Origin: Luteitalea pratensis
GTDB lineage: Bacteria > Acidobacteriota > Vicinamibacteria > Vicinamibacterales > Vicinamibacteraceae
NCBI RefSeq assembly: GCF_001618865.1
Contig: NZ_CP015136.1
Span: forward strand, 6,483,001-6,547,000
Length of the DNA stretch: 64,000 nt
Reading direction: 5' to 3'
The position numbers and the translations under genes are program-made. Shown here in pieces: positions 5,536-44,889 of this stretch. The notes beneath the pieces were generated by a model. The model saw nothing but the letters and a program-made list of their open reading frames with translations, had not been told where the DNA came from and did not search any database. The stretch's first letter is position 1, and every line of letters starts with the position of its first letter.

Positions 5536-5611
5536 ACGAACGTTGAACGTTGAACGCCGAACGTTGACGGAACGCCGACCAACCCTGAATGTTGAACGTT
5601 TAGCGCCGAAG
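5536..5611. repeat. GAACGTTGAACG/GAACGCCGAACG degenerate word array
   Basis: Repeated 6-bp words GAACGT, TGAACG and CCGAAC, spaced irregularly, make up about 75 bp. The same words recur at 32721-32770, and inside coding sequence at 13430-13466 (complementary strand) and 39434-39465. No flanking direct duplication was seen. Confidence 0.7.
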
Positions 5612-7507: not shown

Positions 7508-7677
7508 CGGGCACCGGGCACCGGGCACCGGGTACCGGGCACCGGGTACCGGGCACCGGGTGCGCGCCCTCAACACGCCCGGCAGATCCAATTGTCGCCG
7601 CGCACCGGGCATCGGGCACCGGGCACCGGGCACAAGGTACGGGGGTACGGGGGAGGGCGTACGGGTACTGAGTACCG
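7508..7677. repeat. ACCGGGC/ACCGGGT tandem word array
   Basis: About a dozen copies of a 7-bp unit, alternating CACCGGG and TACCGGG, are interrupted by a unique stretch (about 7565-7600) and then resume. The same unit makes up 43544-43590, upstream of another minus-strand gene. The alternating C/T gives internal GGTACC palindromes. There are no spacers of constant length, so this is not a CRISPR array. Confidence 0.85.
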
Positions 7678-12016: not shown

Positions 12017-13945
12017 TCACCGCCTGTAGGGGGTCCTGCTGACCGCGCCACGCCCTTCGGTGACCTCATAGAGTGCCCCTGCAGGCAGGCGGCCGAGCTT
12101 CTCGGCAGGCCGCCCCGGCCATTCGACGACTACGTCCTCGAGCGCCGCTGCCGAGCCGAGCCCGAACGTCAGTACGAGTTCGGACTGGGAGAGATAACTG
12201 GCGCCCGTCCTCACCGTCCGGCTGACCCTGGCGCCGTTGGCCACGGCTGTCACACGAGTGCCGATCGCATCGCGGTTGGCGGCCGTCCCGTGAAGTCGGA
12301 GCCCGACCATTCCGCCCCGCGTGGAATCGTTACGGAAGAGTTGGGCAAGTCCGCCATTAGCGGTCAGCACGACGTCCGGATCGCCGTCGCCATCGACGTC
12401 CGCAAACGCCGCGCCGCGCCCGATCCGGGCGGCGGCGAAGGCGCCACCGGCGGACCGGGCCACGTCCTCGAACCGGCCCTGCCGGTTGAGGAACAGGTGG
12501 GGTGGGGACGCGTCGCCGGGCGAGCGCGCCAGCGACGGATCGAGTTGCCCGTTCACCACCAGCAGGTCCTGCCAACCGTCGAGATCGACGTCGAAGAAGA
12601 AGCAGCCCCAGCCGAGCGTCTGGCGCGTCGCGCGGCCGATGGCACTCTGCGGCGCGGTATCGACGTAGACGCCCGCATCCTGTGGCACGAACAAGCCGAG
12701 CATCTCGCCGGAGAAGTTGGTGACCGCGACCGACGCGCGGCCGGAGTTGTCGACGTCAGCGGCATCGACACCCATGCCGGCCCGCGCCCGGCCATCGGCA
12801 CTGAATGCCACACCGCTTTGCAGCCCGAGTTCGGTGAACGTGCCGTCGTGATTGTTCCGATACAGGCGGTTCGGCACCGTGTCGTTGGCGACGAACAGGT
12901 CGGGCCAGCCATCGCCATCGTGGTCGAGGACCGTGGCGCCGAGCGCCTTGCCGGTCACGTCGAATAATCCGGCCTTGGCCGTGACGTCCTCGAAGCGGCC
13001 GCCGCCCAGATTGCGGAACAGCCACGAGGTGCTGCCGCGATACGCCTGCGGCGTGCAGTACGTCTTCTGGTTTCCTCCGGCGCTGCAGTAGAGATCGGTC
13101 TGAGGCGACCACTGCACGTAATTGCACACCAGCAGATCGACGAGCCCGTCACGATCGACGTCGACCCAGACCGCGCAGGTGCTGAAGCCGCGACGGTCGG
13201 CCAATCCGGCGCGAGCGGTGACGTCGACCAAGCGCGCGCCACGTTCGTTGCGCAGGAGCGTGATGCCGCCAACGGAGGTGAGGACCACGTCGGTCCACCC
13301 GTCGTTGTCCATGTCGGCGGCTGCGACCCCCATGCCGTAGCGGAGCGTCGTCGACGCGGCCGTGTCGGCCTTCGCCATTCGGCCATCGGCCATCGGCTTT
13401 CGGCCGTGGGACTTGGTCAGGCTGCCTTCGGCGTTCGGCGTTCGACGTTCGGCGTTCGCCTGCAAACCGACCCGCGCACTGACGTCGGTGAACTTGCCCG
13501 TGCCGTCGTTGCGATAGAGCGAGGCGAATCGGCCGCCGCCGCCGCCGGGGAACAGCCCGTTGACGAACAGCAGATCCTGATGGCCGTCGTTGTCGTAGTC
13601 GAGAAAGGCGGCGCCCGCACCCATCGTCTCGGGCAGCAGCTTCCCGCCCGCGGCCCCGTTGTCGTGCCGGGCTGTGATCCCCGCCTCACGCGTGATGTCG
13701 GTGAGGGTCACGCGTACGGTGGGACCCTGTGCTTGCAGGCCCGTGCCGACCGCGACGAGGACCAATGCGGCGGCAACGTGTAGCCGCGGGTCTTTGTCCC
13801 GCGGAACCGCATCACTGACCGTCGGACAACCTGTCCGCCGTAGCCCGGGCGGAGGCGGAAGTCCGACGGCTACGTCCGACGGCGACACGGCGGTGCCGCG
13901 ACAACTTCGGCATTCCGGCAGCGCGGCATCGCGGCATCGCGGCAT
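12017..13945 (-). CDS. CRTAC1-family FG-GAP/ASPIC-UnbV exported protein
   Basis: The protein has up to 642 residues. Repeated FG-GAP/VCBS blades ([70 protein letters not shown]) form a calcium-binding beta-propeller. An ASPIC/UnbV domain closes it ([33 protein letters not shown]). The start is uncertain. The first ATG, at 13945, and the next 55 codons lie in repeat DNA. A TTG at 13765 would give a 582-residue protein beginning with the signal-like [15 protein letters not shown]. About 35 residues near 152-188 are repeat-derived and absent from the two related proteins at 31007 and 35883. The biochemical role is unknown. Confidence 0.88.
13780..13873. repeat. REPIN-like hairpins, copy 3, covering the 5' end of a CRTAC1 gene
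   Basis: It starts GTAG at 13780, then a hairpin with stems 13784-13790 and 13798-13804 (CCGCGGG / CCCGCGG). A second part is rich in CCGCC/GGCGG pairs (13833-13858), and it closes with GTCCGACGGCTAC at 13861-13873. It is translated in frame if the CRTAC1 gene starts at its first ATG. The GTCCGCCGTAGCC part recurs at 39470-39520 and 41336-41350. Confidence 0.6.
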
Positions 13946-14617: not shown

Positions 14618-14720
14618 GGAATTTCAGAATTGCAGAATTGGACAATTTCACCAGCAGGGTCAGCGGTTCGAAGCATGGGAATGGTATTGAAATTCTGAAA
14701 TCCTGAAATTCTGCAATTGT
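14618..14720. repeat. AT-rich fold-back element, copy 1
   Basis: The left arm (14618-14650) is built from GAATTTCA and GAATTGCA words. A 37-nt spacer (14651-14687) contains TTCGAAGC and GGGAATGG. The right arm (14688-14720) has TGAAATTC and CTGCAATT words, so the arms are largely inverted complements. It lies between the histidine kinase and response regulator genes of one operon. Copies 2 and 3 (17691 and 44788) have the same arm words and spacer length, and copy 3 has a similar spacer sequence. Confidence 0.85.
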
Positions 14721-16096: not shown

Positions 16097-17689
16097 ATGC
16101 ACCTGCGGCAGCGAACAAGACGGGCGGCGGCGCTTCGATGGCTGCTCGCCCTCGCATTGCTGGCGGGTGCCCCGGCAGTCTATCCGAGCCACCGCGGGCA
16201 CGGCATCGGCCGCGTTGTCGCGAGCGCCGCCACGCAGAACCTTCCGGCCGCGACCGAGGCCGAGGCCCGGCAGCGCTGTGGCACCGTGTGCCACAAGTTC
16301 CCGCCCCCCGACATCCTGCCGCGAGCGGCGTGGCGTGACGAACTAGTGCGGATGCAGTTGATCGCGGACGGCGTCCCCGAGCCGGCCGGCAGGATGGGTG
16401 GCGGTAGCGCGATGATCGCCCTGCCCCCGGACATGCTGCGCATCCAGCGATTCTACGAGGGCGCCGCGCCGGATCTGCTCCCGGCGCACGCGCCCTGGCC
16501 GGGCACGGGCAGCGCACCCGTGACGTTCGACCGGCAACCGCTGCAGCTCGCGGGCCGACCCGGGCCATCACATCCGGCCGTCGCGAACGTACGGCTCCTC
16601 GACCTGGATGGCGATGGCCAGCCGGAGGTCGTGGCCTCGGACATGCGGGCGGGGCTGATCCTGGCGGGCACGCCCACCAGGGGCGGGACCCTGAAGATCA
16701 TCGCCGACGACGTGCCTCATCCCTCGCACATCGAGCAGATCGACCTCGACAAGGACGGCCTGCAGGACCTGCTGATCGGTGACCTCGGCTCGTTCCAGCC
16801 CGCCGATCACACCAACGGCGCCATCGTGTGGTTACGGCGGAACAAGGACGGCTCCTACAAGTCGTTCGTCCTCGCGGACAAGCTCGGTCGCGTGGCGGAC
16901 GTACGCGCCGCTGATTTCGATGGCGACGGCGACCTGGACCTGGTGGCCGCGGTGTTCGGCTGGCGGCGCACCGGCAGCCTGATCCTGTTCGAGAACCGCA
17001 CGAGGGACTGGAAGGCGCCGCAGTTGCTCGCCGCCGAACTCGATCCACGCCATGGCGCCATTCATGTGCCGATCGCCGATCTGAACGGCGACGGCAAGCC
17101 CGACATCGTGGTCCTGTTCGCCCAGGAGCACGAGACGGTCGCGGCGCTGATCAACACCGGCAAGGGCACGTTCCGGACCGAGACGATCTTCGCGGCGCCA
17201 CACCCGAACTGGGGCTCGTCGGGCATCGAGTTGGTCGACGTCGACAAGGACGGCGACCTCGACGTGCTGTACACGCACGGCGACACCTTCGATGACTTCA
17301 TCCTCAAGCCGTATCACGGCATCACACTGCTCGAGAACACGGGCACCTATCCGTACGTCGCGAGGTCCATCGCCGCCATGCCGGGTGCGCATCGGGCCAT
17401 GGCCGCCGACTTGGACAGCGATGGCGACCTCGACATCGCCGCCGCCGCGATGGTGCCCGGCGGTGGTGGACCGGCCGAGACGACGCTGCCCGCGGTGGTC
17501 TGGATCGAACAGACCGCGCCGTGGACCTGGGCCAGGCACACGATCAAGATGGGCACGCCTGCACACGCAACACTCGCCGTCGGCGACGCCGACAGCGACG
17601 GGCGCCCCGACATCATCGTCGGGGATTTTGCGTTCGGGCCGCCGATGGATGGAATCGTCGACGTCTGGAAGAACCGCGGCAAGCGGTGA
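16097..17689 (+). CDS. Exported FG-GAP/VCBS repeat protein with an N-terminal CxxxCH motif
   Basis: A 530-residue protein. The signal sequence is WLLALALLAGAPAVYP. A short N-terminal module follows with QRCGTVCHKFPPPDILPRAA near residues 60-76, then at least six VCBS/FG-GAP blades (LLDLDGDGQPEVVASD, DLDKDGLQDLLIGD, DFDGDGDLDLVAA, DLNGDGKPDIVVL, DVDKDGDLDVLY, DADSDGRPDIIVGD) that should fold as a calcium-binding propeller. The CGTVCH motif is a heme-c-like C-x3-C-H variant, one residue longer than CXXCH. Together with KFPPPDILPR it resembles a small cytochrome-like cap, but heme binding is unproven. It diverges from the histidine kinase. There is no ASPIC/UnbV domain. Confidence 0.88.
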   Translation: MHLRQRTRRAAALRWLLALALLAGAPAVYPSHRGHGIGRVVASAATQNLPAATEAEARQRCGTVCHKFPPPDILPRAAWRDELVRMQLIADGVPEPAGRMGGGSAMIALPPDMLRIQRFYEGAAPDLLPAHAPWPGTGSAPVTFDRQPLQLAGRPGPSHPAVANVRLLDLDGDGQPEVVASDMRAGLILAGTPTRGGTLKIIADDVPHPSHIEQIDLDKDGLQDLLIGDLGSFQPADHTNGAIVWLRRNKDGSYKSFVLADKLGRVADVRAADFDGDGDLDLVAAVFGWRRTGSLILFENRTRDWKAPQLLAAELDPRHGAIHVPIADLNGDGKPDIVVLFAQEHETVAALINTGKGTFRTETIFAAPHPNWGSSGIELVDVDKDGDLDVLYTHGDTFDDFILKPYHGITLLENTGTYPYVARSIAAMPGAHRAMAADLDSDGDLDIAAAAMVPGGGGPAETTLPAVVWIEQTAPWTWARHTIKMGTPAHATLAVGDADSDGRPDIIVGDFAFGPPMDGIVDVWKNRGKR

Positions 17690-17690
17690 G

Positions 17691-17794
17691 AATTGCAGAA
17701 GTTCAGAAGTTCAGAATTTCATCACCACTGCCAACCTTCCAAGCGCCCGCCTCCGGCATGGAAATTCGTGAAATTCCGAAAGTCTGAAATTGTC
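17691..17794. repeat. AT-rich fold-back element, copy 2
   Basis: The left arm (about 17691-17722) has GAATTGCAGAAG and TTCAGAATTTCA words, followed by a spacer of about 35 nt. The right arm (about 17758-17794) has GAAATTC and TCTGAAATTGT words. It fills the gap between two convergent genes (FG-GAP on plus, TIM barrel on minus), where it could act as a bidirectional terminator. The arms are more diverged than in copies 1 and 3. Confidence 0.8.
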
Positions 17795-21182: not shown

Positions 21183-21260
21183 GAGTGCCGTATTTCGTAT
21201 GCCGTAAGCCGTAAGCCGTAAGACCAATGACCAATGACTAATGACAAATGACAAATGACT
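21183..21260. repeat. GTAAGCC and AATGACAA word array
   Basis: Two tandem words occur side by side: (CC)GTAAG repeated three to four times, then (C)AATGAC / AAATGAC repeated five times. Together they fill the gap between a VWA gene stop (21272) and a TPR gene start (21179). No ribosome-binding site outside the repeat is obvious for the TPR gene. Confidence 0.8.
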
Positions 21261-30550: not shown

Positions 30551-31006
30551 GTGACGCACGGCGGGAACCGAATCCCGTCGTGCCGGATCACCGTGGTCTC
30601 ACCACTCAAATTTTGCGAACGCACGCAGTATCGGGACCGGAAACACGAGATGTCAAGGGGATTTTGGCCTCGTGGGTGGTGCCAATGAACGTGGCGTTTC
30701 TGCCTCATCCACGAGACTAACGCAAAGTGGTCAAGCCACTGCGTGGATTTTTGGCTCAACAGGTCCGAATTGCACCAGAGGAGCGACGTCGTACCTGCGG
30801 CTTCCTGCCTCAGTCGAGGCGAGGAATTTTGGTTTTGTCAGGGATTTCGTACTGGTCTGGCCACGCGAGAGGTGGCCTGACCAGTGGCAACGCTCGACCA
30901 GCAGGCGGCGCGTCCTCACCCAAACCTATTAGCTCTCCAAGGCGAGTCAGCGAGTACCGAATCGAAGCAACTTCGGCCGGGCCAGGCCGTGGTACAACCC
31001 GTCGAT
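30551..31006. other. Divergent regulatory gap between TonB receptor and CRTAC1 operon
   Basis: About 450 bp without a supported gene, with lower GC than its surroundings. It must contain the promoters of both flanking transcription units. Visible structure: a small hairpin with stem AGTGG / CCACT at 30726-30740 followed by TGGATTTTTGG, and a strong inverted repeat at 30851-30885. In the CRTAC1 frame a GTG at 30884 would extend that protein by 41 residues into this gap, but it lies in the inverted repeat and the peptide looks non-coding. Confidence 0.6.
30851..30885. promoter_or_regulatory. Perfect-ended inverted repeat upstream of CRTAC1 operon
   Basis: The arms are ACTGGTCTGGCCAC and GGTGGCCTGACCAGT, separated by about 6 nt, with a single mismatch. 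The repeat lies 122 bp upstream of the CRTAC1 ATG and is unrelated to the REPIN-like elements (no GTAG/CTAC ends). It could be a regulator-binding operator or an RNA hairpin in the leader. No T-tract follows, so termination is less likely. Confidence 0.5.
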
Positions 31007-32719
31007 ATGCCTGATCTGTGGCTCCCGCGGTGGTCACGCCGCGAGTTCCTCCGCGTCGCCGGAAGCACCGCCGTTGCCGCGGCGTCGCCGTGGCCGGCCG
31101 CCCATGCCCAAGGGCCCGAGGCGACCTTCGAAGCCGTTCCGCCTGGCCGTAGCGGCATTACGTGGGTGCACGACAACGCCATGTCCGAGTTCCGGTACCT
31201 GCCCGAGACATGCGGATCGGGCTGCGCGTTCCTCGATTACGACGGCGACGGGTGGATGGACCTCTACCTGGTCAACAGCGGACCGGCCGACTTCTTCACC
31301 CCGAAGACGCCGCTGCGCAACGCGTTGTACCGCAACAATCGGGACGGGACGTTCACCGACGTCACCGAGAAGGCCGGCGTACCGGGCGGGACGTTCGGCA
31401 TGGGCGTCGCGGTCGGCGATTTCGACAACGACGGCTTCCCCGACCTGTTGGTCACCGCCTACGGCAATTGCACGCTGTACCGCAACAACGGCAACGGCAC
31501 GTTCACCAACGTCACCGACAAGGCAGGATTGCGCGTGCCGGGATGGACGACGAGCGCGGTGTGGTTCGACTACGACAACGACGGCCGTCTCGACCTGTTT
31601 GTCTGCAGCTTCGTCGAGTTCTCGCTCAAGACCAACGTCTACTGCGGCGACAACAAGCTGGGACGCCGGTACTACTGCATCCCGCGCGTCTTCAAGCCGT
31701 CGGCCTCGTTCCTGTTCCACAACAACGGCGACGGCACCTTCACCGACGTCACCAGGGGCACCGACATCCAGCGCGCCCTCGGCAAGGGCCTCGGCGTCGT
31801 CGCGACCGACGTCAACAAGGACGGGCAGCTCGATCTGTTCGTCGCCAACGACACGGTGCAGAACTTCCTGTTCATGAACCGCGGCGCCGGCAAGTGGGAC
31901 GAGATCGGGCTGTCGTCGGAAGTCGGCTTCTCGGCCAACGGCCAGCCGCGTTCGGGCATGGGCGTGGACGCCGCCGACTTCGACCAGGATGGCTGGGAAG
32001 ACCTGTTTGTCGCCAACGTCGACCAGGAGATGTTCTCCCTCTACAAGAACCGCGGCAACGAGTCGTTCCAGGACGTGGCCCACGCCAATGGCGTGGCGCA
32101 GTCGACGCGCCTGCTCAGTGGCTGGGGGCTGAAGTTCTTCGACTACGACAACGACGGTCACCTCGACCTGCTGCTCTCCAATGGCCACCCGGACGACATG
32201 ATCGAGAAGTACTCGACGCAGGTGACCTACAGGGAGCCGCTGCTGCTGTTCCGCAACGAGGGTGGGCGTCTCAAGGACGTGAGCGCGAGCAGCGGCCCGG
32301 TGTTCAAGGAGCAGTTTTCCGCGCGCGGTCTCGCCGTCGGCGACTTCGACAACGATGGCCGCCTCGACGTCCTGATCAACAACAACGGCTCGGCACCGAC
32401 GCTGCTGCACAACCGCGCCGGCCGTGACCACCACTGGATCGGGCTCACGCTTCAGGGCGTGAAATGCAACCGCGACGCGATCGGCGCGCGAATCAGCTGG
32501 TCGGTCGGCGGCAAGGTCACCCGCCGCTTCAAGACCGGCGGCGGCAGTTACCTCTCGGCGCACGATCCGCGCGAGATCCTCGGCCTCGGCACGGCGACGC
32601 ATGTCGACTGGATCGAGATTGCCTGGCCGGCGCCGAGTACGCAGGTGGACCGCATCACCACCGCCAAGGTCGATGCCTACCAGAAGGTGGTCGAGGGCAA
32701 GGGGGTGGTCAACGGGTGA
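31007..32719 (+). CDS. Tat-exported CRTAC1-family FG-GAP/ASPIC-UnbV protein
   Basis: A 570-residue protein starting [10 protein letters not shown], with the twin-arginine motif [11 protein letters not shown] at about 10-20 and cleavage after AHAQG. FG-GAP blades follow ([77 protein letters not shown]), then an ASPIC/UnbV domain ([36 protein letters not shown]). Tat export distinguishes it from the two other CRTAC1 proteins here and implies folding before export. It heads the operon with the pentaheme cytochrome. No enzymatic activity is established for the family; calcium-binding propeller function is inferred. Confidence 0.89.
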
Positions 32720-32720
32720 C

Positions 32721-32770
32721 GAACGCCGAACGTTGAACGCCGAACGCCGCTCGAAAGAACGTTGAACGCC
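32721..32770. repeat. GAACGCCGAACGTTGAACG word array
   Basis: Six-base words GAACGC, CGAACG and TTGAAC, as at 5536-5611, start two bases after the CRTAC1 stop codon. They are followed directly by the REPIN-like pair at 32786. Confidence 0.75.
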
Positions 32771-32785
32771 GCGTCTACGCGGAGT

Positions 32786-32841
32786 GTAGCCGCCGACCTT
32801 GGTCGGCGGTCAGTGATGCGTCGAGCAAGCTCGACGCCTAC
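32786..32841. repeat. REPIN-like hairpin pair, copy 4
   Basis: GTAG (32786-32789), then a hairpin CCGCCGACC / GGTCGGCGG with loop TT (32790-32809), an 8-nt spacer, a hairpin GCGTCGAGC / GCTCGACGC with loop AA (32818-32837), and CTAC (32838-32841). This is the most compact and clearest copy. Its second half is identical over 20 nt to the solitary hairpin at 43588-43615. Confidence 0.8.
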
Positions 32842-32842
32842 A

Positions 32843-32949: not shown

Positions 32950-35886
32950 ATGTCTGCTCAGCTCCTTTCCGGGCGCCGCGCGTGGTGGCTCGCCGGCTTC
33001 TTCCTGCTGCTCCTGAACAGCGCCTACCTCGGCGCATTCGCAACCGCGTCGGGCTTCTACTACGCGCAGGTGGCGCTGCACGTGGTCGGTGGCATCGTGC
33101 TCGGCGCGACGGCCCTGCGGTTCCTGGCGCGGCACCGCCGCGTGCCGGAGGGCTGGGGCGTCGCCATCGGTCCGCTGCTCGTCGCGCTTGCCACCGGGCT
33201 GATCCTCTCCTGGACCGGCGCGACCCGCCCCTGGCGCTGGCTCCTCTACACGCACATCGCGGCGTCGGTCCTCGGGACCGTGCCGGTACTCCTGGCGCTG
33301 CTGGTGAGGTCCTTTGGCCCGGGCTTCCGTGGCACGGCCGACGTCCGGGCGGCCCGGTTGCTGCGCGTCGGCGTGGCCGTCACGCTCGTCGCGCTGGTCG
33401 GCTCGGTGGCGTACGTGAGCCGCTATGGTGCGGTGCGCCGGGCGTCCTACCGCATCCGGAACCCGTCGATCGTGCCGACGTCGATGCGCGAAGAGGGCGC
33501 GGGTCCCGCAAGTCGGTTCTTCCCGTCATCGGCCAACACCGACCGCAACACCGTGATCCCCTCGAACTTCTTCATGACGAGCAAGGACTGCGCGCGGTGC
33601 CACAAGCAGATCTACGACGAGTGGAACGAGTCGGCGCACCATTTCGCATCGTTCAACAACCAGTGGTACCGGAAGTCGATCGAGTACATGCAGGACATGG
33701 TCGGCACGACGCCGTCCAAGTGGTGTGCCGGCTGCCATGACCACGCCGTGTTCTTCAACGGCCGCTTCGACACGCCGATCAAGCAGCAGATCGACACGCC
33801 GGAGGCGCAGAACGGGCTGAGCTGCACGTCGTGCCATGCAATCACGCACGTGGGCAGCTCGATGGGCAACGGCAACTTCGTCATCGAGTACCCACCGCTG
33901 CACGACCTGGCGGTCAGCGGCCAGCCACTGCTCCAGTGGACGCACGACAAGTTGCTCGAGCTCGACCCGCAGCCGCACCGCGAGACGTTCCTGAAGCCGT
34001 TCATGACCGACCAGACGCCCGAGTACTGCAGCAGCTGCCACAAGGTGCACCTGGACGTGCCGGTCAACGGCTATCGCTGGATTCGCGGCTTCAACGACTA
34101 CGACAACTGGCAGGCGTCGGGCGTGTCGGGCATGGGCGCACGCGCCTTCTACTACCCCGCGAAGTCGGCCGGCTGTGGCGACTGTCACATGCCGAAGGTC
34201 GCCTCGACCGACCCGACAGCCAGGGACGGCAAGCACAAGAGCCACCGGTTCGCGGCCGCCAACACCGCGTTGCCGTTCGTGAACGGGCACGCGACGCAGC
34301 TGAAGGCCGTCCAGTCCTTCCTCAAGGACGGCCAGGTGAGCATCGACATCTTTGGTCTCGTGCGCTCGTCGGCGGGCACGGCTGGCGAGGAACGCGCGGT
34401 TGCCGGCAGCGAGCCGCGTGCCGCCAGCACCTTCGCCGTCGGTGAGGAGTCGATCAACTTCGGCGCGAGCACGGCGGTACTCAAGCCGGCGCTGCCGGTG
34501 GTGGCGCCGCTCGACAAGGTCACGCCGGCCGTTCGGCGCGGCGAGTCGGTGCGCCTCGAGGTCGTGGTGCGCACGCGCAAGGTCGGGCACTTCTTCCCGG
34601 GCGGCACCGTGGACGGCTTCGACGTCTGGGTCGAGCTCGAAGCTGTCGACAGCAAGGGACGCACGATCATGCACAGCGGCGTCGTCGCCGACGATGGCAA
34701 GGGGCCGGTCGAACCCGGCGCGCACTTCTACCGGAGCCTGCTGCTCGACGCCAGGGGCAACCCGATCAACAAGCGCAACGCCTGGTCGGCGCGATCGGTC
34801 GCGTACGTGCGCCTGATCCCGCCCGGCGCGGCCGACACGATCCACTACCGTCTCGACGTACCCGCCGACGCGGGTGACCGGATCACCCTCAAGGCGAGGC
34901 TGAACTACCGCAAGTTCGCCTGGTGGAACACGCAGTGGGCGTTTGCCGGCGTGCGCGACCCGGCGCAGCGCGACGCGAGCATCGGCCGCGACCACGACAG
35001 CGGTCGCTGGCTGTTCACGGGCGACACGTCACACGTGCCGGGAGGTGTGAAGGCCATCCCCGCGATCCCGATCACGGTGATGGCCGAGGCGACGGCGACG
35101 CTGCAGGTGGTCGGCGCGACCGATCCCCTCCCACCTGACGCGCCCCTGGTACACCAGAGCGTGCGCGAGCGCTGGAACGACTACGGCATCGGCCTCCTGC
35201 TGCAGGGGGACCTCAAGGGCGCGGAAGCGGCGTTTCTCAACGTGACTCAGGCCGAGCCCGGCTATGCCGACGGCTGGGTCAACGTCGCCAGGGCCCGCAT
35301 CAACGAGGGAAACGTCGATGGCGCCGGTGAGGTCCTGAAGAAGGCGCTTGCGATCAACCCGGCGCTGGCCAAGACCCACTTCTTCGTCGGCCAGACCGCC
35401 AAATCGCTTGGCAACTACGACGATGCGATCACGCACCTGCGCGAAGCCGCACGCCAGTTCCCACGTGATCGGGTGGTGCGCAACCAGCTCGGGCGGGTGC
35501 TGTTCCTGAAGCGGCAGTATCCGGAGGCCGTCAGCGAGTTCAAGGCAGCGCTCGATGTGGACCCCGAGGATCTGCAGGCGCATTACAACCTGATGCTCTG
35601 CTACCAGGGCATGGGCCAGCAGGAACTCGCCATGCGCGAGCGGACGTTGTACGAACGCTTCAAGGCCGACGAGGCGTCGCAGGCGATTACCGGCGACTAC
35701 CGCCGCCTGAACCCCGACGATAACAACGAGCGGCAGGGCGTGCACGAGCATCGGCAGGCGTCCGCGTGGCCCGCGGGTGGTAGGGACGGCTCTCCGAGCC
35801 GTCCATCTCCAAAGAGCCATCCTTCACCCGCGGAGACCGCACGGACATGGACCGCTCAGAGAGCGGTCCCTACCTCGCAGAAATGA
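32950..35886 (+). CDS. Membrane-anchored pentaheme c-type cytochrome with TPR domain
   Basis: A 978-residue protein. The N-terminus has about five transmembrane helices (residues 12-150). A cytochrome c554-like region carries five CXXCH heme sites near residues 213 (CARCH), 258 (CAGCH), 292 (CTSCH), 359 (CSSCH) and 408 (CGDCH), with extra His residues available as distal ligands. A beta domain lies at about 530-690 (VGHFFPGGTVDGFDVWVELE) and TPRs at about 735-900 (GDLKGAEAAFLNVTQAEPGY, NYDDAITHLREAARQFPRDR). The architecture suggests periplasmic electron transfer, with the TPR part as docking surface. The last 30-40 residues are translated from a REPIN-like repeat and are unlikely to be ancestral. 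Its TGA overlaps the next ATG. Confidence 0.9.
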   Translation: MSAQLLSGRRAWWLAGFFLLLLNSAYLGAFATASGFYYAQVALHVVGGIVLGATALRFLARHRRVPEGWGVAIGPLLVALATGLILSWTGATRPWRWLLYTHIAASVLGTVPVLLALLVRSFGPGFRGTADVRAARLLRVGVAVTLVALVGSVAYVSRYGAVRRASYRIRNPSIVPTSMREEGAGPASRFFPSSANTDRNTVIPSNFFMTSKDCARCHKQIYDEWNESAHHFASFNNQWYRKSIEYMQDMVGTTPSKWCAGCHDHAVFFNGRFDTPIKQQIDTPEAQNGLSCTSCHAITHVGSSMGNGNFVIEYPPLHDLAVSGQPLLQWTHDKLLELDPQPHRETFLKPFMTDQTPEYCSSCHKVHLDVPVNGYRWIRGFNDYDNWQASGVSGMGARAFYYPAKSAGCGDCHMPKVASTDPTARDGKHKSHRFAAANTALPFVNGHATQLKAVQSFLKDGQVSIDIFGLVRSSAGTAGEERAVAGSEPRAASTFAVGEESINFGASTAVLKPALPVVAPLDKVTPAVRRGESVRLEVVVRTRKVGHFFPGGTVDGFDVWVELEAVDSKGRTIMHSGVVADDGKGPVEPGAHFYRSLLLDARGNPINKRNAWSARSVAYVRLIPPGAADTIHYRLDVPADAGDRITLKARLNYRKFAWWNTQWAFAGVRDPAQRDASIGRDHDSGRWLFTGDTSHVPGGVKAIPAIPITVMAEATATLQVVGATDPLPPDAPLVHQSVRERWNDYGIGLLLQGDLKGAEAAFLNVTQAEPGYADGWVNVARARINEGNVDGAGEVLKKALAINPALAKTHFFVGQTAKSLGNYDDAITHLREAARQFPRDRVVRNQLGRVLFLKRQYPEAVSEFKAALDVDPEDLQAHYNLMLCYQGMGQQELAMRERTLYERFKADEASQAITGDYRRLNPDDNNERQGVHEHRQASAWPAGGRDGSPSRPSPKSHPSPAETARTWTAQRAVPTSQK
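35779..35874. repeat. REPIN-like hairpin pair, copy 5, inside the 3' end of the cytochrome gene
   Basis: GGTAGGGA (35779-35786) with hairpin GGACGGCTC-type stems (35784-35804, loop TCC), a spacer, a hairpin GGACCGCTC / GAGCGGTCC with loop AGA (35849-35869), and TCCCTACC (35867-35874). The outer ends are perfect inverted copies of each other. The whole element is translated as the C-terminus of the pentaheme protein. The architecture is identical to the intergenic copy at 42403. Confidence 0.85.
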
Positions 35887-37592
35887 TACGTAACTCACTC
35901 CTCACACTCTCTCTGGCGACCTTCGCGGTCGCGAGCGTCGGTTCCCTTGTGCACGGTCAACCGTCCAGGGCCAGGGGCCCGGCGTCCCCGGCGCTCGTCG
36001 CCTTTACCGATGTCACCACGAGAGCCGGCGTGACGTTCCGTCACACCAGCGGCGCGTTCGGCAAGAAGTACCTGCCCGAGACCATGGGTGCCGGCGTCGT
36101 CGTGCTCGACTTCGACAACGATGGCCACCAGGATCTGTTCTTCGCCAATGGCAAGGCGTGGCCGGGACGCCCGCCGCTGCGCAGCCTGCCGGCGCTGTAT
36201 CGCAGCACCGGCGCCGGCACGTTCACCGACGTCACCAGGGCAGCAGGCCTGGCCTTCGAGGCGTACGGGATGGGCGCGGCGGCCGCCGACTACGACAACG
36301 ACGGCTTCGTCGACCTGTTCGTGACCGCCCTCGGCGGCAATCGCCTCTTCCGCAACACCGGCAAGGGCACCTTCGAGGACGTCACGCAGCGCGCCAGCGT
36401 CGGTCGGGTCGGCTTCTCCACCAGCGCGGCCTGGTTCGACTACGACAAGGACGGCCGGCTCGACCTGATCGTCGCCAACTACGTGCAGTGGCAACTCGAG
36501 AAGGACATCCATTGCACGCTCGATGGCAAGACGAAGTCGTACTGCACACCGGAGAGCTACAAGGGCGAGACGCCGTTTCTCTTCCACAACCTCGGCAACG
36601 GTACGTTCGAGGACGCGACCACGAAGGCCGGCCTGAACGATCCCGCCAGCAAGGGGCTCGGCGTCGGCCTGCTGGACTACAACGCCGACGGCTATCTCGA
36701 CGTGTTCGTGGCCAACGACACGCAGCCCAACCGGCTCTATCGCAACACCGGCAAGGGCACGTTCGTGGACGAAGCGGTCACCGCCGGCGTCGCCTTCAAC
36801 GAAGCGGGCGTGGCCCGCGCCGGCATGGGTGTGGACGCGGCCGACTTCGATGGATCCGGGCGCCCGGGACTGCTGATCGGCAACTTCTCCAACGAGATGC
36901 TGTCGCTCTATCGCAACGAAGGCAACGGGCTGTTCATCGACGATGCGCCGACATCGAGCCTCGGACGCGAATCGCTCCTGTCACTGACCTTCGCGTGCTT
37001 CTTCTTCGATGCCGACAACGACGGCCTGCTCGACATCTTCACCGCCAATGGGCACGTGGCCGACGACATCAATCGCGTCCAGCCGAAGGTCACCTACGCG
37101 CAGGCCTCGCACCTGTACCGGAACGGCGGCAAGGCCCGTTTCTCCAACGTCGCTGCCGGTATCCCGGCGCTGATGACGCCGACCGTGGCGCGCGGCGCGG
37201 CGCACCTCGACATGGACAACGACGGCGATCAGGATCTCATCGTGACGGTGAACAACGGCCCGGCGCGCGTGCTGCGCAACGACTCCGCCGGTGGGCGCGC
37301 ACTGCGGCTGTCGCTCGTCGGCGTCAAGTCGAACCGTTCGGCCATCGGCGCCGAGGTCCGCGTGACGACCGGCGGCGCGACACGGATCGGGATGGTCAAG
37401 ACCGGCTCGAGCTACCTCTCGCAGAGCGAACTGCCGCTCACCTTCGGGCTCGGCACGGCGACCAGGGTGGAGCAGGTCGAAATCCGCTGGCCGAGCGGCC
37501 AGGTCGATCGTCTCGGCCCGCAGGACGCCGGCCAGACGCTCGTGGTCACCGAGGCCAAGGGCGTTACACGCCGCGTCGCGTTCGGACGATAA
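35883..37592 (+). CDS. CRTAC1-family FG-GAP/ASPIC-UnbV exported protein
   Basis: A 569-residue protein. The ATG overlaps the cytochrome stop (ATGA at 35883-35886), which is preferred over an ATG at 35847 lying in repeat DNA. The signal peptide is LLTLSLATFAVASVGSLVHG. FG-GAP blades follow ([90 protein letters not shown]), and then an ASPIC/UnbV domain (GTATRVEQVEIRWPSGQVDR). It is closest in layout to the CRTAC1 protein at 12017-13945, including YCTPESYKGETPFLFHNLG, but without the internal insertion. Function is unknown. Confidence 0.89.
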   Translation: MIRNSLLTLSLATFAVASVGSLVHGQPSRARGPASPALVAFTDVTTRAGVTFRHTSGAFGKKYLPETMGAGVVVLDFDNDGHQDLFFANGKAWPGRPPLRSLPALYRSTGAGTFTDVTRAAGLAFEAYGMGAAAADYDNDGFVDLFVTALGGNRLFRNTGKGTFEDVTQRASVGRVGFSTSAAWFDYDKDGRLDLIVANYVQWQLEKDIHCTLDGKTKSYCTPESYKGETPFLFHNLGNGTFEDATTKAGLNDPASKGLGVGLLDYNADGYLDVFVANDTQPNRLYRNTGKGTFVDEAVTAGVAFNEAGVARAGMGVDAADFDGSGRPGLLIGNFSNEMLSLYRNEGNGLFIDDAPTSSLGRESLLSLTFACFFFDADNDGLLDIFTANGHVADDINRVQPKVTYAQASHLYRNGGKARFSNVAAGIPALMTPTVARGAAHLDMDNDGDQDLIVTVNNGPARVLRNDSAGGRALRLSLVGVKSNRSAIGAEVRVTTGGATRIGMVKTGSSYLSQSELPLTFGLGTATRVEQVEIRWPSGQVDRLGPQDAGQTLVVTEAKGVTRRVAFGR

Positions 37593-37613: not shown

Positions 37614-37729
37614 AGGTCTCAAGTCTCAGGTCTCAAGTCTCAGGTCTCAGGTCTCAAGTCTCAAGTCTCAGGTCTCAGGTCTCGGGTCTGAGGTCCAGTC
37701 CCGCCTGAGACCTGAGTCCTGAGACCTGC
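37614..37729. repeat. GGTCTCAAGTCTCA tandem array with inverted tail
   Basis: About eleven copies of a 7-bp word (AGTCTCA, GGTCTCA, with GGTCTCG and GGTCTGA variants) span 37614-37695. After a short unique core the complementary words (TGAGACC, TGAGTCC) run to 37729, giving a fold-back. It separates two genes of the same operon. Confidence 0.85.
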
Positions 37730-37756: not shown

Positions 37757-40700
37757 ATGATGCCCCAATCCCTGATCCTGCTTGCCGGCGTGGTCACGCT
37801 CGGCGTCGTGCTCACGGCGCAGCCAACGTCCTCACCGCGCGATGTGCGGGAGCGGGCCTGGCAGGCCAACAACCTCGGCGTCGCCTATCTCGAGCAGTTC
37901 AACTATGCGAAGGCGGCAACACAATTCGAGGCAGCGCTGACCATCGACGCTGCCTTCGTGCCGGCGCGCGTCAACCTCGCGATCGCGCGCATGTACGAGC
38001 CGGACCTGCCGGCCGCAGTCAAGGCTGCGACCGCTGCCGCCGAGGCGTCATCGGCGCCGCCGCACGCCACCTTCGTGCTCGGGCTGATTGCCCGCAGCGA
38101 GAATCGCGAGGAGGATGCGCTAGCCGCATTCCGGCGCGTGCTGCAGGCGGACCCAGACGATGTCGCGTCGCTCGTGAACCTCGGCCAGCTGCTCCTGCAG
38201 CGGCGCGCCTACGCGGAGGCCGTTCCCGTCTTCGGCAAGGCGGTCGAACTCGAGCCCTACAACGTCTCGGCGCTCTACAACCTCGCGGTCGCCCAGACCC
38301 GCGCCGGCCAGCGCGAACTCGGGGCCGCCACGACAGCAAAGTTCCAGGTGCTGCGCGAGACGGGCTACGGCACCACGTATTCGAACACCTACATGGAACA
38401 GGGCCGGTACGCGGAGGCCATCCTGTCGACCGGCGCCGAAGCTGACGTCGCGCCAACCCCGACGGCGCTGACCTACGCCACCGCCGGCCTCGCATTCGGG
38501 AGCGGCACGTCTTCGACGGTGATCGCCGCCGGAGATCTCGATCACGACGGGCACAGCGACTACCTCGTGGTCACCGACGCAGGCTTCGACGCGTACGTGA
38601 ACACCGGGGCCGCGCCGCGTCGGCTGCGGTCCGCGTCGTGGCCGTTACCTGCGGCATTTGCGCCCCGCGGCGCGATCGTCGCCGACACCGACAACGACGG
38701 CAAGGCGGACGTGTTGCTGCACGGACGCGGCGGCATCGCCCTGTGGAGGCAGAAGGCCGGCGCCAGCGGTACCGCCATCGACTTCGAGGACGTCACCGCC
38801 CGGACCGGCATCATGACCGCACTCGACGTCAGGACTGCGGCACTCGTCGATCTCGACCACGATGGCGATACCGACCTGGTGATCGGCGGTGCGAACCGCA
38901 TCGACGGATCGCCAGCCCCCCTCGCCGCCTGGCGCAACAACGGCGACGGCACCTTTGCCGACATCTCCGCGAACGCGCTCCCGGCGCAGGAACCGCTGGT
39001 GGCCCTGGCCCTCATCCCAACCGACGTGGACATGCGCCGCGACATCGACCTGCTCGTGCTCGGCGAGGACGGCCGCATCCGTTTGTGGCGCAACATGCGG
39101 GACGCCTCGTTCCGCGAGGTATCGACCACTGTGGGACTCGACGCGCTGCCGCCGGCGGCGACGATCGCCGTCGGCGACGCGACCAAGGACGGCTTCCCGG
39201 ACATCGCGGTGAGCGCCCGCACCGGCAGCAGCGTCCTCGCCGTCGGCGCATCGAACAATCGCTTCACGGCCAGGCCCTTCGACGCGCTTGCCGCCGGTGC
39301 GCTCGCGGCGCAGATGGTCGACGCCGACAACGATGGGCTACTCGACGTGGTCACCCTCGCCGCCGATGGCGTCCGCGTCGCGCGGCAGGCCGCCGGCGGC
39401 GCGTTCGAGGACATCACCGGGCGGACGGGATTGACGAACGCCGAACGCCGAACGCCGAACGCCGACGTGTCCGCCGTAGTCTCAGCGAAGGCGGAAGACC
39501 GACTTGTCCGCCGTAGCCTTGGCGAAGGCGGACTCCCGACTCCCGACGCCCTTGTGCTGCTCGATGCCGACCTGTCCGGATCGATGGACATCGTCACGGT
39601 ACGCGCCGGCAAGGCGACGCTGCACCTGGCCGGGGGCGTCGCCACGCCGGGCTTCCACGTCGCGCTGACCGGACAGGTGAGCAACCGCGGTGGCATCGGC
39701 GCGAAGGTGGAGATGCGGGCCGGCAGCCTGTGGCAGAAGCTCGAGACCTCGGCCGCCTCGCCGGCGGCGGCGCCGGCCGACATCCTGTTCGGGTTGGGCA
39801 CGCGGCCCGCTGTCGACGTCGTGCGTGTGCTGTGGCCAGCCGGCATCGTGCAGGCCGAGCCGATCGGTGCCGACACGCAGAAGAAGCGCTCGCTCGAAGT
39901 CGTCGAGCTCGATCGGAAGCCCTCGTCGTGCCCGTATCTCTACTCATGGAATGGCGAGCGCTTCGAGTTCGTCACCGACTTTCTCGGTGGCGGCGAGATG
40001 GGCTACCAGGTCTCGCCTGGCGTCTACAGCACGCCTGACCCGGAAGAGTTCGTCCGCATCCGCGCCGACCAGTTGCGGGCGCGCGACGGCCGGTACGAGT
40101 TGCGCGTGACCAATGAACTCGAGGAGACGCTGTTTCTCGACCACCTGTCGCTCGTCGCCATCGATCATCCAGCCGGGACAGACGTGTACCCACGCGAGGG
40201 CCTGGTGTCGTCACCGGCGGCCGGGCTGCAGGTGGAGACGCTGCGCGAGCGTCGTCCAGTCCAGCGGGTGATCGACGCGTCCGGCCGCGACGCCACCGCC
40301 AACGCGGCTCGCACCGACCGCACGTTCGTCGACGGCCTGCCGCTTCTGCCTGTGCGCGGCTACGCGAAGCCGCACGGCATGACCCTCGATCTCGGTGCGG
40401 CCACGCCATCGCGTGGTGCCGTGCTGCTGCTGACCGGGTGGACCGACTATGCCTTCTCGAGCGACAACATCGCCGCTTCGCATGCCGGCCATGCCCTGCA
40501 TCCACCATCGCTGCAGGTGCGCAACGGCAATGGCGAGTGGCAGACGGTAATCGAGGAAATTGGCGTGCCGGTCGGCCGTCCGCAGACGATCGTGGTCGAC
40601 CTCACTGATCGCTTCCTCTCCGCGAGCCGCGAGGTCCGCATTGCCACCAGCATGCGCGTGTACTGGGACCAGGTCGAGATCGCCACCCGCTATGCGGAAT

Positions 40701-41389
40701 GCGGCAATGCCGAATGCGGGAGTGTCGAGAGCGTCGGCAAGTCGGGTCAGTCACCAGGTAGGGCCGATGACGGTAGGGCCCGCTCTCCTTGGGCGCCGAA
40801 GCGCGTAGCGCGAAGGCGGCCGAGCCCGGCCCAAGGCGTGGACGACAATCACATCGTCGTGACCCGCGTGCCCGCGTCGAGCGCCACGCTTGGTTGGCGT
40901 GGCTTCTCCGAGATGACCTCGCCCCGGGAGCCTCTCACCTTCGACTACAGCCGCGTGACCGCTATCTCCCCATGGAAGCAGATGCCGGGACGCTATACGC
41001 GTGAGGGTGACGTCGGCGCGCTCCTGCAAGCGGTCGACGACCAGTTCGTCGTCTCGCGGCCCGGCGACGAAGTGTCGCTCGCCTTCGAGGCCACGGCGTT
41101 GCCGACATTGCGCGCTGGCTGGACCCGCACGTTCCTCCTGCACGGGGACGGGTACAGCAAGGAGATGGACATCAACTCCGCGAGCCCGGACCAGGCGTGG
41201 CCGCTGCCCTCGCATCGGATGACGCGCTACCCGGCGCCGTCGTCCTGGCCCGAGCCGGCCTGGTTCACGCGGTACAACACGCGGATCGTCGGTCGTCAGG
41301 TGCCGCGCCTCGCCGGAGTGCCTCCCGGCCGTCTTGTCCGCCGTAGCCCTGGCGCAGGCGGAAGCCTTGGCGAAGGCGAGCTGCGATGA
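37757..41389 (+). CDS. Large exported protein with TPRs, FG-GAP propeller and C-terminal beta domains
   Basis: A 1210-residue protein. The signal is LILLAGVVTLGVVLTAQ. TPRs cover about 30-200 (NYAKAATQFEAALTIDAAFV, REEDALAAFRRVLQADPDDV, AYAEAVPVFGKAVELEPYNV) and FG-GAP blades about 245-620 (DLDHDGHSDYLVVTD, DTDNDGKADVLLHG, DLDHDGDTDLVIGGAN, DADNDGLLDVVTLA). An ASPIC-like part and further beta domains follow (CPYLYSWNGERFEFVTDFLG, YELRVTNELEETLFLDHLSL). Three segments read as translated repeats: about 560-597, 979-1030 and the last 15 residues. It sits in the cytochrome operon and its stop overlaps the next start (ATGA). Domains like the last are seen on TPR/CRTAC1 proteins of unknown function. 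Confidence 0.86.
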   Translation: MMPQSLILLAGVVTLGVVLTAQPTSSPRDVRERAWQANNLGVAYLEQFNYAKAATQFEAALTIDAAFVPARVNLAIARMYEPDLPAAVKAATAAAEASSAPPHATFVLGLIARSENREEDALAAFRRVLQADPDDVASLVNLGQLLLQRRAYAEAVPVFGKAVELEPYNVSALYNLAVAQTRAGQRELGAATTAKFQVLRETGYGTTYSNTYMEQGRYAEAILSTGAEADVAPTPTALTYATAGLAFGSGTSSTVIAAGDLDHDGHSDYLVVTDAGFDAYVNTGAAPRRLRSASWPLPAAFAPRGAIVADTDNDGKADVLLHGRGGIALWRQKAGASGTAIDFEDVTARTGIMTALDVRTAALVDLDHDGDTDLVIGGANRIDGSPAPLAAWRNNGDGTFADISANALPAQEPLVALALIPTDVDMRRDIDLLVLGEDGRIRLWRNMRDASFREVSTTVGLDALPPAATIAVGDATKDGFPDIAVSARTGSSVLAVGASNNRFTARPFDALAAGALAAQMVDADNDGLLDVVTLAADGVRVARQAAGGAFEDITGRTGLTNAERRTPNADVSAVVSAKAEDRLVRRSLGEGGLPTPDALVLLDADLSGSMDIVTVRAGKATLHLAGGVATPGFHVALTGQVSNRGGIGAKVEMRAGSLWQKLETSAASPAAAPADILFGLGTRPAVDVVRVLWPAGIVQAEPIGADTQKKRSLEVVELDRKPSSCPYLYSWNGERFEFVTDFLGGGEMGYQVSPGVYSTPDPEEFVRIRADQLRARDGRYELRVTNELEETLFLDHLSLVAIDHPAGTDVYPREGLVSSPAAGLQVETLRERRPVQRVIDASGRDATANAARTDRTFVDGLPLLPVRGYAKPHGMTLDLGAATPSRGAVLLLTGWTDYAFSSDNIAASHAGHALHPPSLQVRNGNGEWQTVIEEIGVPVGRPQTIVVDLTDRFLSASREVRIATSMRVYWDQVEIATRYAECGNAECGSVESVGKSGQSPGRADDGRARSPWAPKRVARRRPSPAQGVDDNHIVVTRVPASSATLGWRGFSEMTSPREPLTFDYSRVTAISPWKQMPGRYTREGDVGALLQAVDDQFVVSRPGDEVSLAFEATALPTLRAGWTRTFLLHGDGYSKEMDINSASPDQAWPLPSHRMTRYPAPSSWPEPAWFTRYNTRIVGRQVPRLAGVPPGRLVRRSPGAGGSLGEGELR
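39434..39547. repeat. Repeat block translated in frame inside the 1210-residue protein gene
   Basis: GAACGCCGAACGCC words (39434-39465) are followed by two copies of the GTCCGCCGTAGYCT...GCGAAGGCGGA element and the short word CCCGACT repeated. The block length keeps the reading frame. It encodes [11 protein letters not shown] followed by SLGEGGLPTPD between two FG-GAP strands. Confidence 0.75.
40693..40845. repeat. Second repeat block translated in frame in the same gene
   Basis: It starts with GCGGAATGCGGCAATGCC words, then a partial REPIN-like end GGTAGGGC (twice, near 40760 and 40774) and GCGAAGGCGG-type sequence. It encodes RYAECGNAECGSVESVGKSG and a basic, proline-rich stretch that interrupts a beta domain between EIATRY and DDNHIVVTRV. 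Confidence 0.65.
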
Positions 41390-43590: not shown

Positions 43591-43615
43591 GGCGTCGAGC
43601 AAGCTCGACGCCTAC
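43588..43615. repeat. Solitary REPIN-like hairpin
   Basis: GTAG, perfect 9-bp stem GCGTCGAGC / GCTCGACGC with loop AA, CTAC. The sequence from GCGTC to CTACA matches the second half of the pair at 32786-32841 exactly, so it is probably a half-element. It is the only copy with a single stem and both ends. Confidence 0.8.
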
Positions 43616-43627
43616 AATTACACAGTT

Positions 43628-44787: not shown

Positions 44788-44888
44788 TAATTGCAGAATT
44801 GCAGAATTTCACAATTTCACTACCCACCGCCGTGCCTCGAAGCTGGCAATGGCACTGAAATTCTGAAATTCTGAAATTCCTGCAATTC
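44788..44888. repeat. AT-rich fold-back element, copy 3
   Basis: The left arm (44788-44819) has TAATTGCAGAATTGC words and the right arm (44855-44888) has TGAAATTC and CTGCAATT words. A 35-nt spacer (44820-44854) shares TCGAAGC and GGCAATGG with copy 1. It sits between convergent genes, as copy 2 does, and ends 1 bp before the stop of the HExxH gene on the minus strand. Confidence 0.85.
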
Positions 44889-44889
44889 T

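Follow-up and report, generated by a model that had tools for sequence, protein, structure and literature searches.

On balance, we think it probable that an insert in a CRTAC1-like gene of Luteitalea pratensis is one copy of a class of tandem arrays of 7-bp words, abundant in the genus, whose members were copied between loci and then changed in length by slippage. The gene lies in a window of 64,000 nucleotides (NCBI RefSeq assembly GCF_001618865.1, contig NZ_CP015136.1, positions 6,483,001 to 6,547,000), where it occupies positions 12017-13945 of the minus strand. Arrays of this class are frequent in at least three species, each of which has its own vocabulary of words. A single word occurs at many unlinked loci, whose flanks are not clearly shared; its phase is fixed at about half of the ends tested. 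Two species share array-bearing gaps between genes, not the words within them, and a few arrays stand in frame in conserved genes. The genome of the window is designated G000; G001, G002, G003, and G004 are genomes of the same genus.

The insert in the CRTAC1-like protein

The 642-residue open reading frame (ORF) encodes six FG-GAP_3 stretches and a C-terminal UnbV_ASPIC domain, which place it among the CRTAC1-like (FG-GAP/UnbV_ASPIC) proteins. A sequence comparison recovered a single solved relative, 9etn_A ("Cartilage acidic protein 1", E 3.7e-10). The insert spans residues 162-202 (13340-13462, minus strand), between VGL and the YGMG of the next blade, where it places 41 residues against about four in homologs, a net gain of about 36-37. 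A first-pass annotation of the window, made by a model from the sequence alone, had reported repeat words in frame inside this gene, for which it named no strand; the ORF is real, and the insert is indeed free of stops and divisible by three in length. The annotation's estimate of about 35 residues was sound, while its coordinates, 13382-13466, cover only about two thirds of the insert.

The join from VGL to YGMG is four residues long in all seven paralogs and other-genus homologs compared. Four residues also make the join in the window's paralogs at 30884-32719 and 35847-37592, which the annotation had already named (from 31007 and 35883) as joining the blades directly. The join is at most five residues in all 13 non-genus homologs of alignment A1, whose non-genus members are mostly homologs rather than proven orthologs. 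A regular-expression survey of join lengths returned 21 matches of 2-5 residues, and eight of 77-79, which take in the first blade and were not used. A homologous sequence in orthologs of other genera, which the annotation had named as evidence against its reading, did not appear: the 13 homologs lack the insert, and in the closest outside sequence, L041, the 28 residues at this site do not form a heptamer repeat.

Two period-7 arrays joined by a short linker make up the insert. One (13424-13458, minus strand) has the unit GAACGCC on the coding strand, encoding the heptapeptide NAERRTP; its canonical word, AACGCCG, is the second commonest of the G000 sample. The other (13365-13404, minus strand) has units such as GCCGATG, with variants, on the coding strand (PMADGR). 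Self-match of the insert is 0.54 at lag 7 and 0.61 at lag 14, and only 0.16-0.34 at all remaining lags between 3 and 15. The same type of word occurs between genes, as the annotation had held, in plus-strand arrays of GAACG(TT/CC) at 5538-5563 and of GAACGCC at 32720-32749.

AlphaFold2, run on A1 (15 sequences), gave a model with a mean predicted local distance difference test (pLDDT) score of 76.2 and a predicted template modeling (pTM) score of 0.79. Insert residues 164-199 score below 50, with confident strands on either side. The array is thus predicted to run between blades as a disordered loop, most likely of no use to the protein. The annotation's reading, that words of the intergenic type stand in frame inside the gene, is supported. 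Residues 1-74 of the ORF also score below 50; the ORF as called probably begins too far upstream, with the true start further in. A period-8 array, CGGCATCG, overlaps the first codons (13908-13945), which likewise suggests that the true start lies downstream.

Since 7 equals 1 modulo 3, the three frames of a heptamer array all yield a single cyclic heptapeptide, NAERRTP in the case of GAACGCC. The frame of entry is then immaterial, and only the strand, through its stops, and the total length count. Among the 49 words of the G000 sample, 25 are open on both strands, 22 on one, and two on neither. Repeat DNA can in this way add disordered segments to conserved proteins and leave the frame intact.

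Orthologs in the genus

Some CRTAC1 match was found in 41 of 60 genomes searched, G000 included. An ortholog is present in G001, G002, and G004; in G003 only paralog-level matches were found, the best at 52% identity. All four congeners with the ortholog, counting G000, carry a heptamer insert at the same site, with differing words. In the three other genomes the region between VGL and YGMG holds an in-frame insert of period 7: 41 residues in G001 (GGGCTCA and GCCGACT), 48 in G004 (CCGGGAA and GGCCCAG), and 63 in G002 (CCGGCAA and CGGGCAC), with lag-7 self-match of 0.57, 0.60, and 0.43, respectively. The residues of the insert are not conserved among orthologs. Its flanks are under purifying selection, with dN/dS (simple Nei-Gojobori) of 0.102 for G001, 0.093 for G004, and 0.126 for G002. 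The frame and the protein are therefore maintained while the insert differs, and the differing words at one site point to a persistent or recurrent address rather than a single insertion.

Frequency and placement of period-7 arrays

Array score thresholds were set for this analysis at 13 for counts, 11 for gaps, and 8-9 in some views; gene calls are ORFs with a homolog in another species rather than the output of a trained gene finder. A sample of 864 kb of G000 holds 137 period-7 arrays, 21 period-8 arrays, and no more than eight of any other period from 3 to 13. G001 has 118 period-7 arrays in 880 kb, where the next commonest period, 12, has 12; G002 has 31 in 240 kb; G004 has eight in 144 kb, some of which are runs of C; and G003 has none in 35 kb. 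Densities are 129-159 per Mb in G000, G001, and G002 and 56 in G004, against 22 per Mb (eight in 357 kb) in members of the order outside the genus.

In a 464-kb stretch of G000, 92 period-7 arrays were found, against none at the same threshold in one first-order Markov shuffle. By scaling, the whole genome would hold about 1,200. Outside called genes lie 63 of the 92, with five at gene edges and 24 inside called ORFs; 16 of the 24 lack aligned homology on both sides and may represent wrong starts or tails.

Species vocabularies

Words were counted by locus, merging arrays within 300 bp. The leading words are ACCTGAG (14), AACGCCG (12), and ACCCGGT (9) at 103 loci in G000; ACTCCCG (21), AGCCCTG (17), and ACCGGGC (11) at 94 loci in G001; and AACCGGC (12) and ACCGGGC (5) at 23 loci in G002. 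Overlap between the vocabularies of G000 and G001 is 0.185, against 0.589 when permuted, and none of 2000 permutations was as low. It is far below the permuted value for G000-G002 and G001-G002 as well (0 of 2000 each), and less clearly so for pairs with the small G004 sample (8, 62, and 6 of 2000).

Whole-genome counts of triple units, on both strands and with overlapping matches included, were made in 14 genomes. CTGAGAC triples number 150 in G000 and 0 in the 13 others. CGGCAAC has 183 in G002, 23 in G029, 3 in G004, and 0 in 11 genomes, G000 and G001 among them. GAACGCC is found 65 times in G000, 30 in G001, 3 each in G003 and G005, and 0 in 10; CGACTCC 224 times in G001, 70 in G004, 53 in G000, 5 in G020, 2 in G003, and 0 in 9; and GAGCCCT 57 times in G001, 17 in G000, 11 in G004, 2 in G055, 1 in G003, and 0 in 9. 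Reversed-pattern controls gave 0 for CGACTCC, CGGCAAC, and CTGAGAC; reversed GAACGCC gave 2 in G002, and reversed GAGCCCT gave 2 in G000, 1 in G003, and 14 in G057. Some words are thus private to a species, and others are shared at differing abundance.

The words of each CRTAC1 insert recur elsewhere in the same genome. With the CRTAC1 locus excluded, the first words are found at 11 of 102 loci in G000 (AACGCCG), 16 of 93 in G001 (AGCCCTG), 11 of 22 in G002 (AACCGGC), and 1 of 5 in G004 (AACCGGG); the second words at 3 of 102 (AAGGCCG), 4 of 93 (ACTGCCG), 4 of 22 (ACCGGGC), and 0 of 5 (AGGGCCG). At least one insert word is among the commonest of its genome in G000, G001, and G002, while G004 is too little sampled. 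The assignment of inserts to their own genomes ranks first of 24 permutations (alone, p ~0.04); for these counts and this assignment, two in-gene arrays were truncated to 60 letters.

Shared gaps with unrelated words

Among 187 syntenic gaps between genes of G000 and G001, arrays occur in both species in 24, in G000 only in 26, in G001 only in 14, and in neither in 123 (odds ratio 8.1, p 9e-8). The association holds when length is controlled in the 119 gaps of at least 30 bp (log odds 1.96 +- 0.49). Shared gaps number 21, against 11.7 +- 2.2 expected from a length-stratified permutation, none of whose 5000 trials reached 21. Words in paired gaps show no more resemblance than those of shuffled pairs: 3 of 24 pairs agree within one mismatch (3.45 expected) and 11 within two (8.9 expected), and one shared gap holds an identical word in both species. 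This pattern is compatible both with old addresses whose words are replaced and with repeated landing at permissive places.

Recurrence across loci: flanks, ends, and strand

Background frequencies of words, with arrays masked, are close between species. AACCGGC occurs in the background at 2.04, 1.94, and 1.77 per kb in G000, G001, and G002, and in arrays at 0, 0, and 70.8 per Mb; background k-mer frequency does not explain the recurrence of words. Two modes of spread were tried and rejected. Local spread along the chromosome finds no support in neighboring loci, which share words as often as when shuffled (4 vs 4.1; 6 vs 6.7). Nor does copying of a larger element, since flanking 11-mers are shared without clear excess by same-word over different-word pairs (4.8 vs 3.0% in G000, 3.4 vs 3.8% in G001, 2.3 vs 3.2% in G002).

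Phase at array ends was tested against a uniform-phase null, counting a single array for each word and locus (1 kb), and 11 of 22 start or end tests gave p < 0.05. AACCGGC ends at one base in 8 of 11 arrays, AGCCCTG starts at one base in 11 of 17, and ACTCCCG in G001 ends at one base in 11 of 21. By eye, 13 of 19 GAGCCCT rows in G001 continue into GAGCC, eight of these leaving the word right there.

For strand, each contig was split at its midpoint; the sign of GC skew agrees with this division roughly in G001 and weakly in G000. The strand of arrays differs between chromosome halves in all four word-genome sets tested, which involve three words: GAACGCC in G001 (plus/minus 10/1 vs 0/5, p 0.0014) and in G000 (15/3 vs 7/13, p 0.0036), GAGCCCT in G001 (9/2 vs 6/18, p 0.0028), and CGACTCC in G000 (11/2 vs 7/13, p 0.011). 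A dispersed hairpin used as control showed no such difference (p 0.65, first 100 of 127 places).

Arrays inside other protein-coding genes

The 464-kb stretch of G000 contains eight internal arrays with homology on both sides, in seven genes: CRTAC1, the window gene at 37757-41389, TrmFO, and genes named Lhr-like, Nei2-like, DECH-helicase-like, and AddB-like. Names are by NCBIfam, where only TrmFO passed the curated cut-off. G001 shows five internal arrays in three genes. In the Lhr-like gene, one site holds GCAGGCT in G000 and CGACTCC in G001. TrmFO has arrays in the loop that follows FRASRWGR, of GCAGGCT in G000 and (CCGGCAA)4 in G002. The remaining eight of ten aligned genomes show a different or shorter sequence there, and no array was found in the four of these where one was looked for.

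The window gene at 37757-41389 has two in-frame inserts, both on the plus strand. The first, (GAACGCC)n at 39435-39465, repeats the word of the CRTAC1 insert and again comes just after a DIT..TGL motif, so that the peptide NAERRTPNA follows TGL. None of six other species aligned has a period-7 array (score at least 9) in this gene, and G003 has a different, long, non-heptamer insert at the 39435-39465 site. The second, at 40691-40837, is 49 residues long, opens with degenerate GGAATGC units, and is missing from all six other species, with just a few additional residues in G005. This gene also holds, twice and in frame, a dispersed repeat, GTCCGCCGTAGCCT..GCGAAGGCGGA, of about 37 bp (VRRSLGEGG, 39462-39532). 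The CRTAC1 ORF has a similar sequence close to its start, at about 13820-13880, and TrmFO holds a peptide, RRSRGEGGP, that resembles VRRSLGEGG.

Proposed mechanism and alternatives

The account we favor holds that arrays would be copied between loci as short units free of flanks. Ectopic templated copying, coupled to replication, would do this, through template switching or through gene conversion from tract to tract. Copied arrays would then be lengthened or shortened by slippage, with new words replacing earlier ones or settling at the same permissive sites. Of the copies inside genes, selection would keep only those that are free of stops, have a total length divisible by three, and lie in surface loops; overall, it would clear copies from all but gaps and floppy loops. 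Templating by a reverse transcriptase was considered and rejected: PF00078 (RVT_1) has no match in G000, while the same profile matches 3 of 14 control genomes.

Several points weigh against this account. No copying event was caught, and we infer the word-copying step. The congeners are distant, with 82-87% amino acid identity in CRTAC1, and because they stand so far apart no pair of empty and filled sites is available at the level of bases. L041, an Acidobacteria metagenome-assembled genome (MAG) whose CRTAC1 homolog is 70% identical and adjoins a response regulator as in the window, has its 28 non-heptamer residues at the very site of the insert, and its DNA includes the hairpin GTCGGACAAGTCCGAC. 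The site thus accepts other sequence too; the loop can be long without heptamers, and either may have come first. Shared gaps may reflect a few permissive sites hit repeatedly, and G001 carries an array at the corresponding site in only two of the seven G000 genes, CRTAC1 and Lhr-like. Vocabularies are not fully private: the main G002 word CGGCAAC has 23 triples in G029, a member of another family of the same order, and the G002 insert word ACCGGGC is common in G001 as well (11 of 93 loci). The insert words of G004 recur at just 1 and 0 of 5 loci, and among five words searched genome-wide the commonest in G004 is CGACTCC (70). The other 11 of the 22 end-phase tests are non-significant, and the uniform null ignores base composition. 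As to strand, CTGAGAC in G000 stands at 23 plus and 22 minus by eye among the matches listed, in the first 2.8 Mb; GAGCCCT in G000, also by eye, at 1 plus and 2 minus and then 0 plus and 5 minus, eight loci being too few to test. The strand bias might reflect transcription, gene direction being uncontrolled.

A mobile-element origin deserves some consideration, though we regard it as unlikely: arrays might be tiny non-autonomous elements moved by an IS200/RAYT-like transposase, as is thought for REPINs. Fixed ends would suit such elements, as would the narrow lengths of AACCGGC arrays, of which 6 of 11 span 31-33 bp; the lengths of other words are more variable. By eye, GCTCTCT or GCTTTCT precedes 8 of 19 GAGCCCT arrays in G001, in one case with a variant unit between. 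A candidate transposase is also at hand: Y1_Tnp matches G000 four times, at three places, and every match exceeds the Pfam cut-off (best E 4.9e-7). A stop breaks one of the three places, and the matches were counted without reference to array positions. Arrays are direct repeats, however, and so many words per genome would demand many specificities.

Independent slippage at each locus, with arrays growing from chance seeds because the polymerase favors 7-bp slips and with no exchange between loci, seems improbable. Words do change along single arrays, as at 21189-21259, and in PMC4692102 and PMC4679880 period 7 is described as over-represented in many bacteria and slippage set by the polymerase footprint is put forward. 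Such slippage fits poorly with a word found at many unlinked loci and at few or none in a sister species of near-equal background, with the fixed end phase of part of the words, or with the same terminal pieces at unlinked loci.

A selected function is less probable again. Arrays could serve as binding or regulatory sites or as useful variable loops, with words tracking a changing DNA-binding protein or methylase, and the gaps shared across species, the recurrence of words within a species, and the strand difference between chromosome halves would all accord with this. Against it stand the arrays in TrmFO, Nei2-like, and helicase genes, with no obvious use of a site, the 49 words of one genome sample, and the lack of conservation among CRTAC1 insert residues. 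That the reading frame through the repeat is accidental, a pseudogene or ORF artifact, can be set aside: chance ORFs are common in GC-rich DNA and residues 1-74 resemble an over-extended start, yet the frame is kept in four of four orthologs despite unrelated insert sequence, with flank dN/dS of 0.093-0.126.

More speculatively, and with rather little confidence, we raise the possibility that a trans-acting process other than transposition writes species-wide heptamer words into partly fixed addresses, in gaps and permissive loops. Words would change together while addresses stay, a bacterial counterpart of concerted evolution that might be templated and coupled to the direction of replication.

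Relation to known repeats

Tandem direct 7-bp units far above chance, mainly intergenic, place these arrays among heptameric repeats. Short tandemly repeated repetitive (STRR) heptamers of cyanobacteria were reportedly described by Mazel in 1990 and Vioque in 1997. Cyanobacterial STRR usually have 7-bp units, of unknown function (PMC2670836), and Calothrix has three different heptanucleotides (PMC4692102); compared by description only, word replacement by species at shared addresses is not among the published accounts found. The heptameric repeats of Xanthomonas (GGGAATC) and Nostoc (GGGGA(C/T)T) resemble the present arrays in being 7-bp tandem units spread genome-wide, mostly intergenic and some intragenic (PMC4692102). 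Xanthomonas keeps one G-rich word type at shared sites, whereas shared gaps here carry different words, and no one dominant word type is kept between relatives. The same source describes no leading or lagging preference, unlike the four word-genome sets that differ between chromosome halves here. Beggiatoaceae have 169 sets of TAACTGA direct repeats, likewise heptamers and mainly intergenic, with one favored word, related heptamers rarely or never repeated, and stops in the forward orientation (PMC4679880).

Tandem repeats within ORFs of Borgs also encode disordered regions, leave ORFs unbroken, and evolve rapidly, but their unit length is divisible by three and virtually all their sequences are unique, in contrast to a unit of 7 and words that recur genome-wide (PMC9879509). 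Of these Borg-type properties the CRTAC1 insert shares the disordered region, by prediction (pLDDT < 50 at 164-199), and not the divisible unit. Rickettsia palindromic elements are very small, dispersed, palindromic, and found in frame in genes. REPINs and their RAYTs are comparable as very small dispersed elements, although REPINs are inverted or palindromic and the arrays here read as direct repeats (PMC3116915).

In the literature search no report of heptamer arrays in Acidobacteria was found, most subscription papers being out of reach. Other bacteria are known to have heptamer repeats; the combination of shared addresses and words specific to a species looks like a new form of them. In the papers cited, bacterial heptamer repeats come without a demonstrated mechanism. 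The pattern here narrows the options, combining shared addresses, species-specific words, no clearly shared flanks, partly fixed phase, and no reverse transcriptase found. Differing words at partly shared places across species hint at an unknown copying process.

Other repeats in the window and its relatives

Two further intergenic arrays of the window are CGGGCAC/CGGGTAC at 7508-7560 (plus strand) and, at 37616-37695 (minus strand), the canonical word ACCTGAG (CTGAGAC), the commonest of the G000 sample. At 37616-37728, just upstream of the gene at 37757, an array of GTCTCAG and one of CTGAGAC stand opposed, in inverted orientation, and might fold into a large hairpin. In L238 of G002 (contig C3, about 861-1400), several (CGGCAAC)n arrays alternate with the short spacers AGCCTCCCGGG and AGGGCTCACGG.

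A second class of arrays has period 8 and is of the AAATTCTG type, for example TGAAATTC. It is represented in the window at 14619-14718, 17689-17791, and 44789-44889, with 21 arrays in the 864-kb sample of G000, eight in that of G001, and none in that of G002. A hairpin-like repeat, GTCGAGCAAGCTCGAC, occurs at 32818-32842 and 43591-43616, the latter copy adjoining a heptamer array. The whole G000 genome has 127 copies of it, against none for the reversed control.
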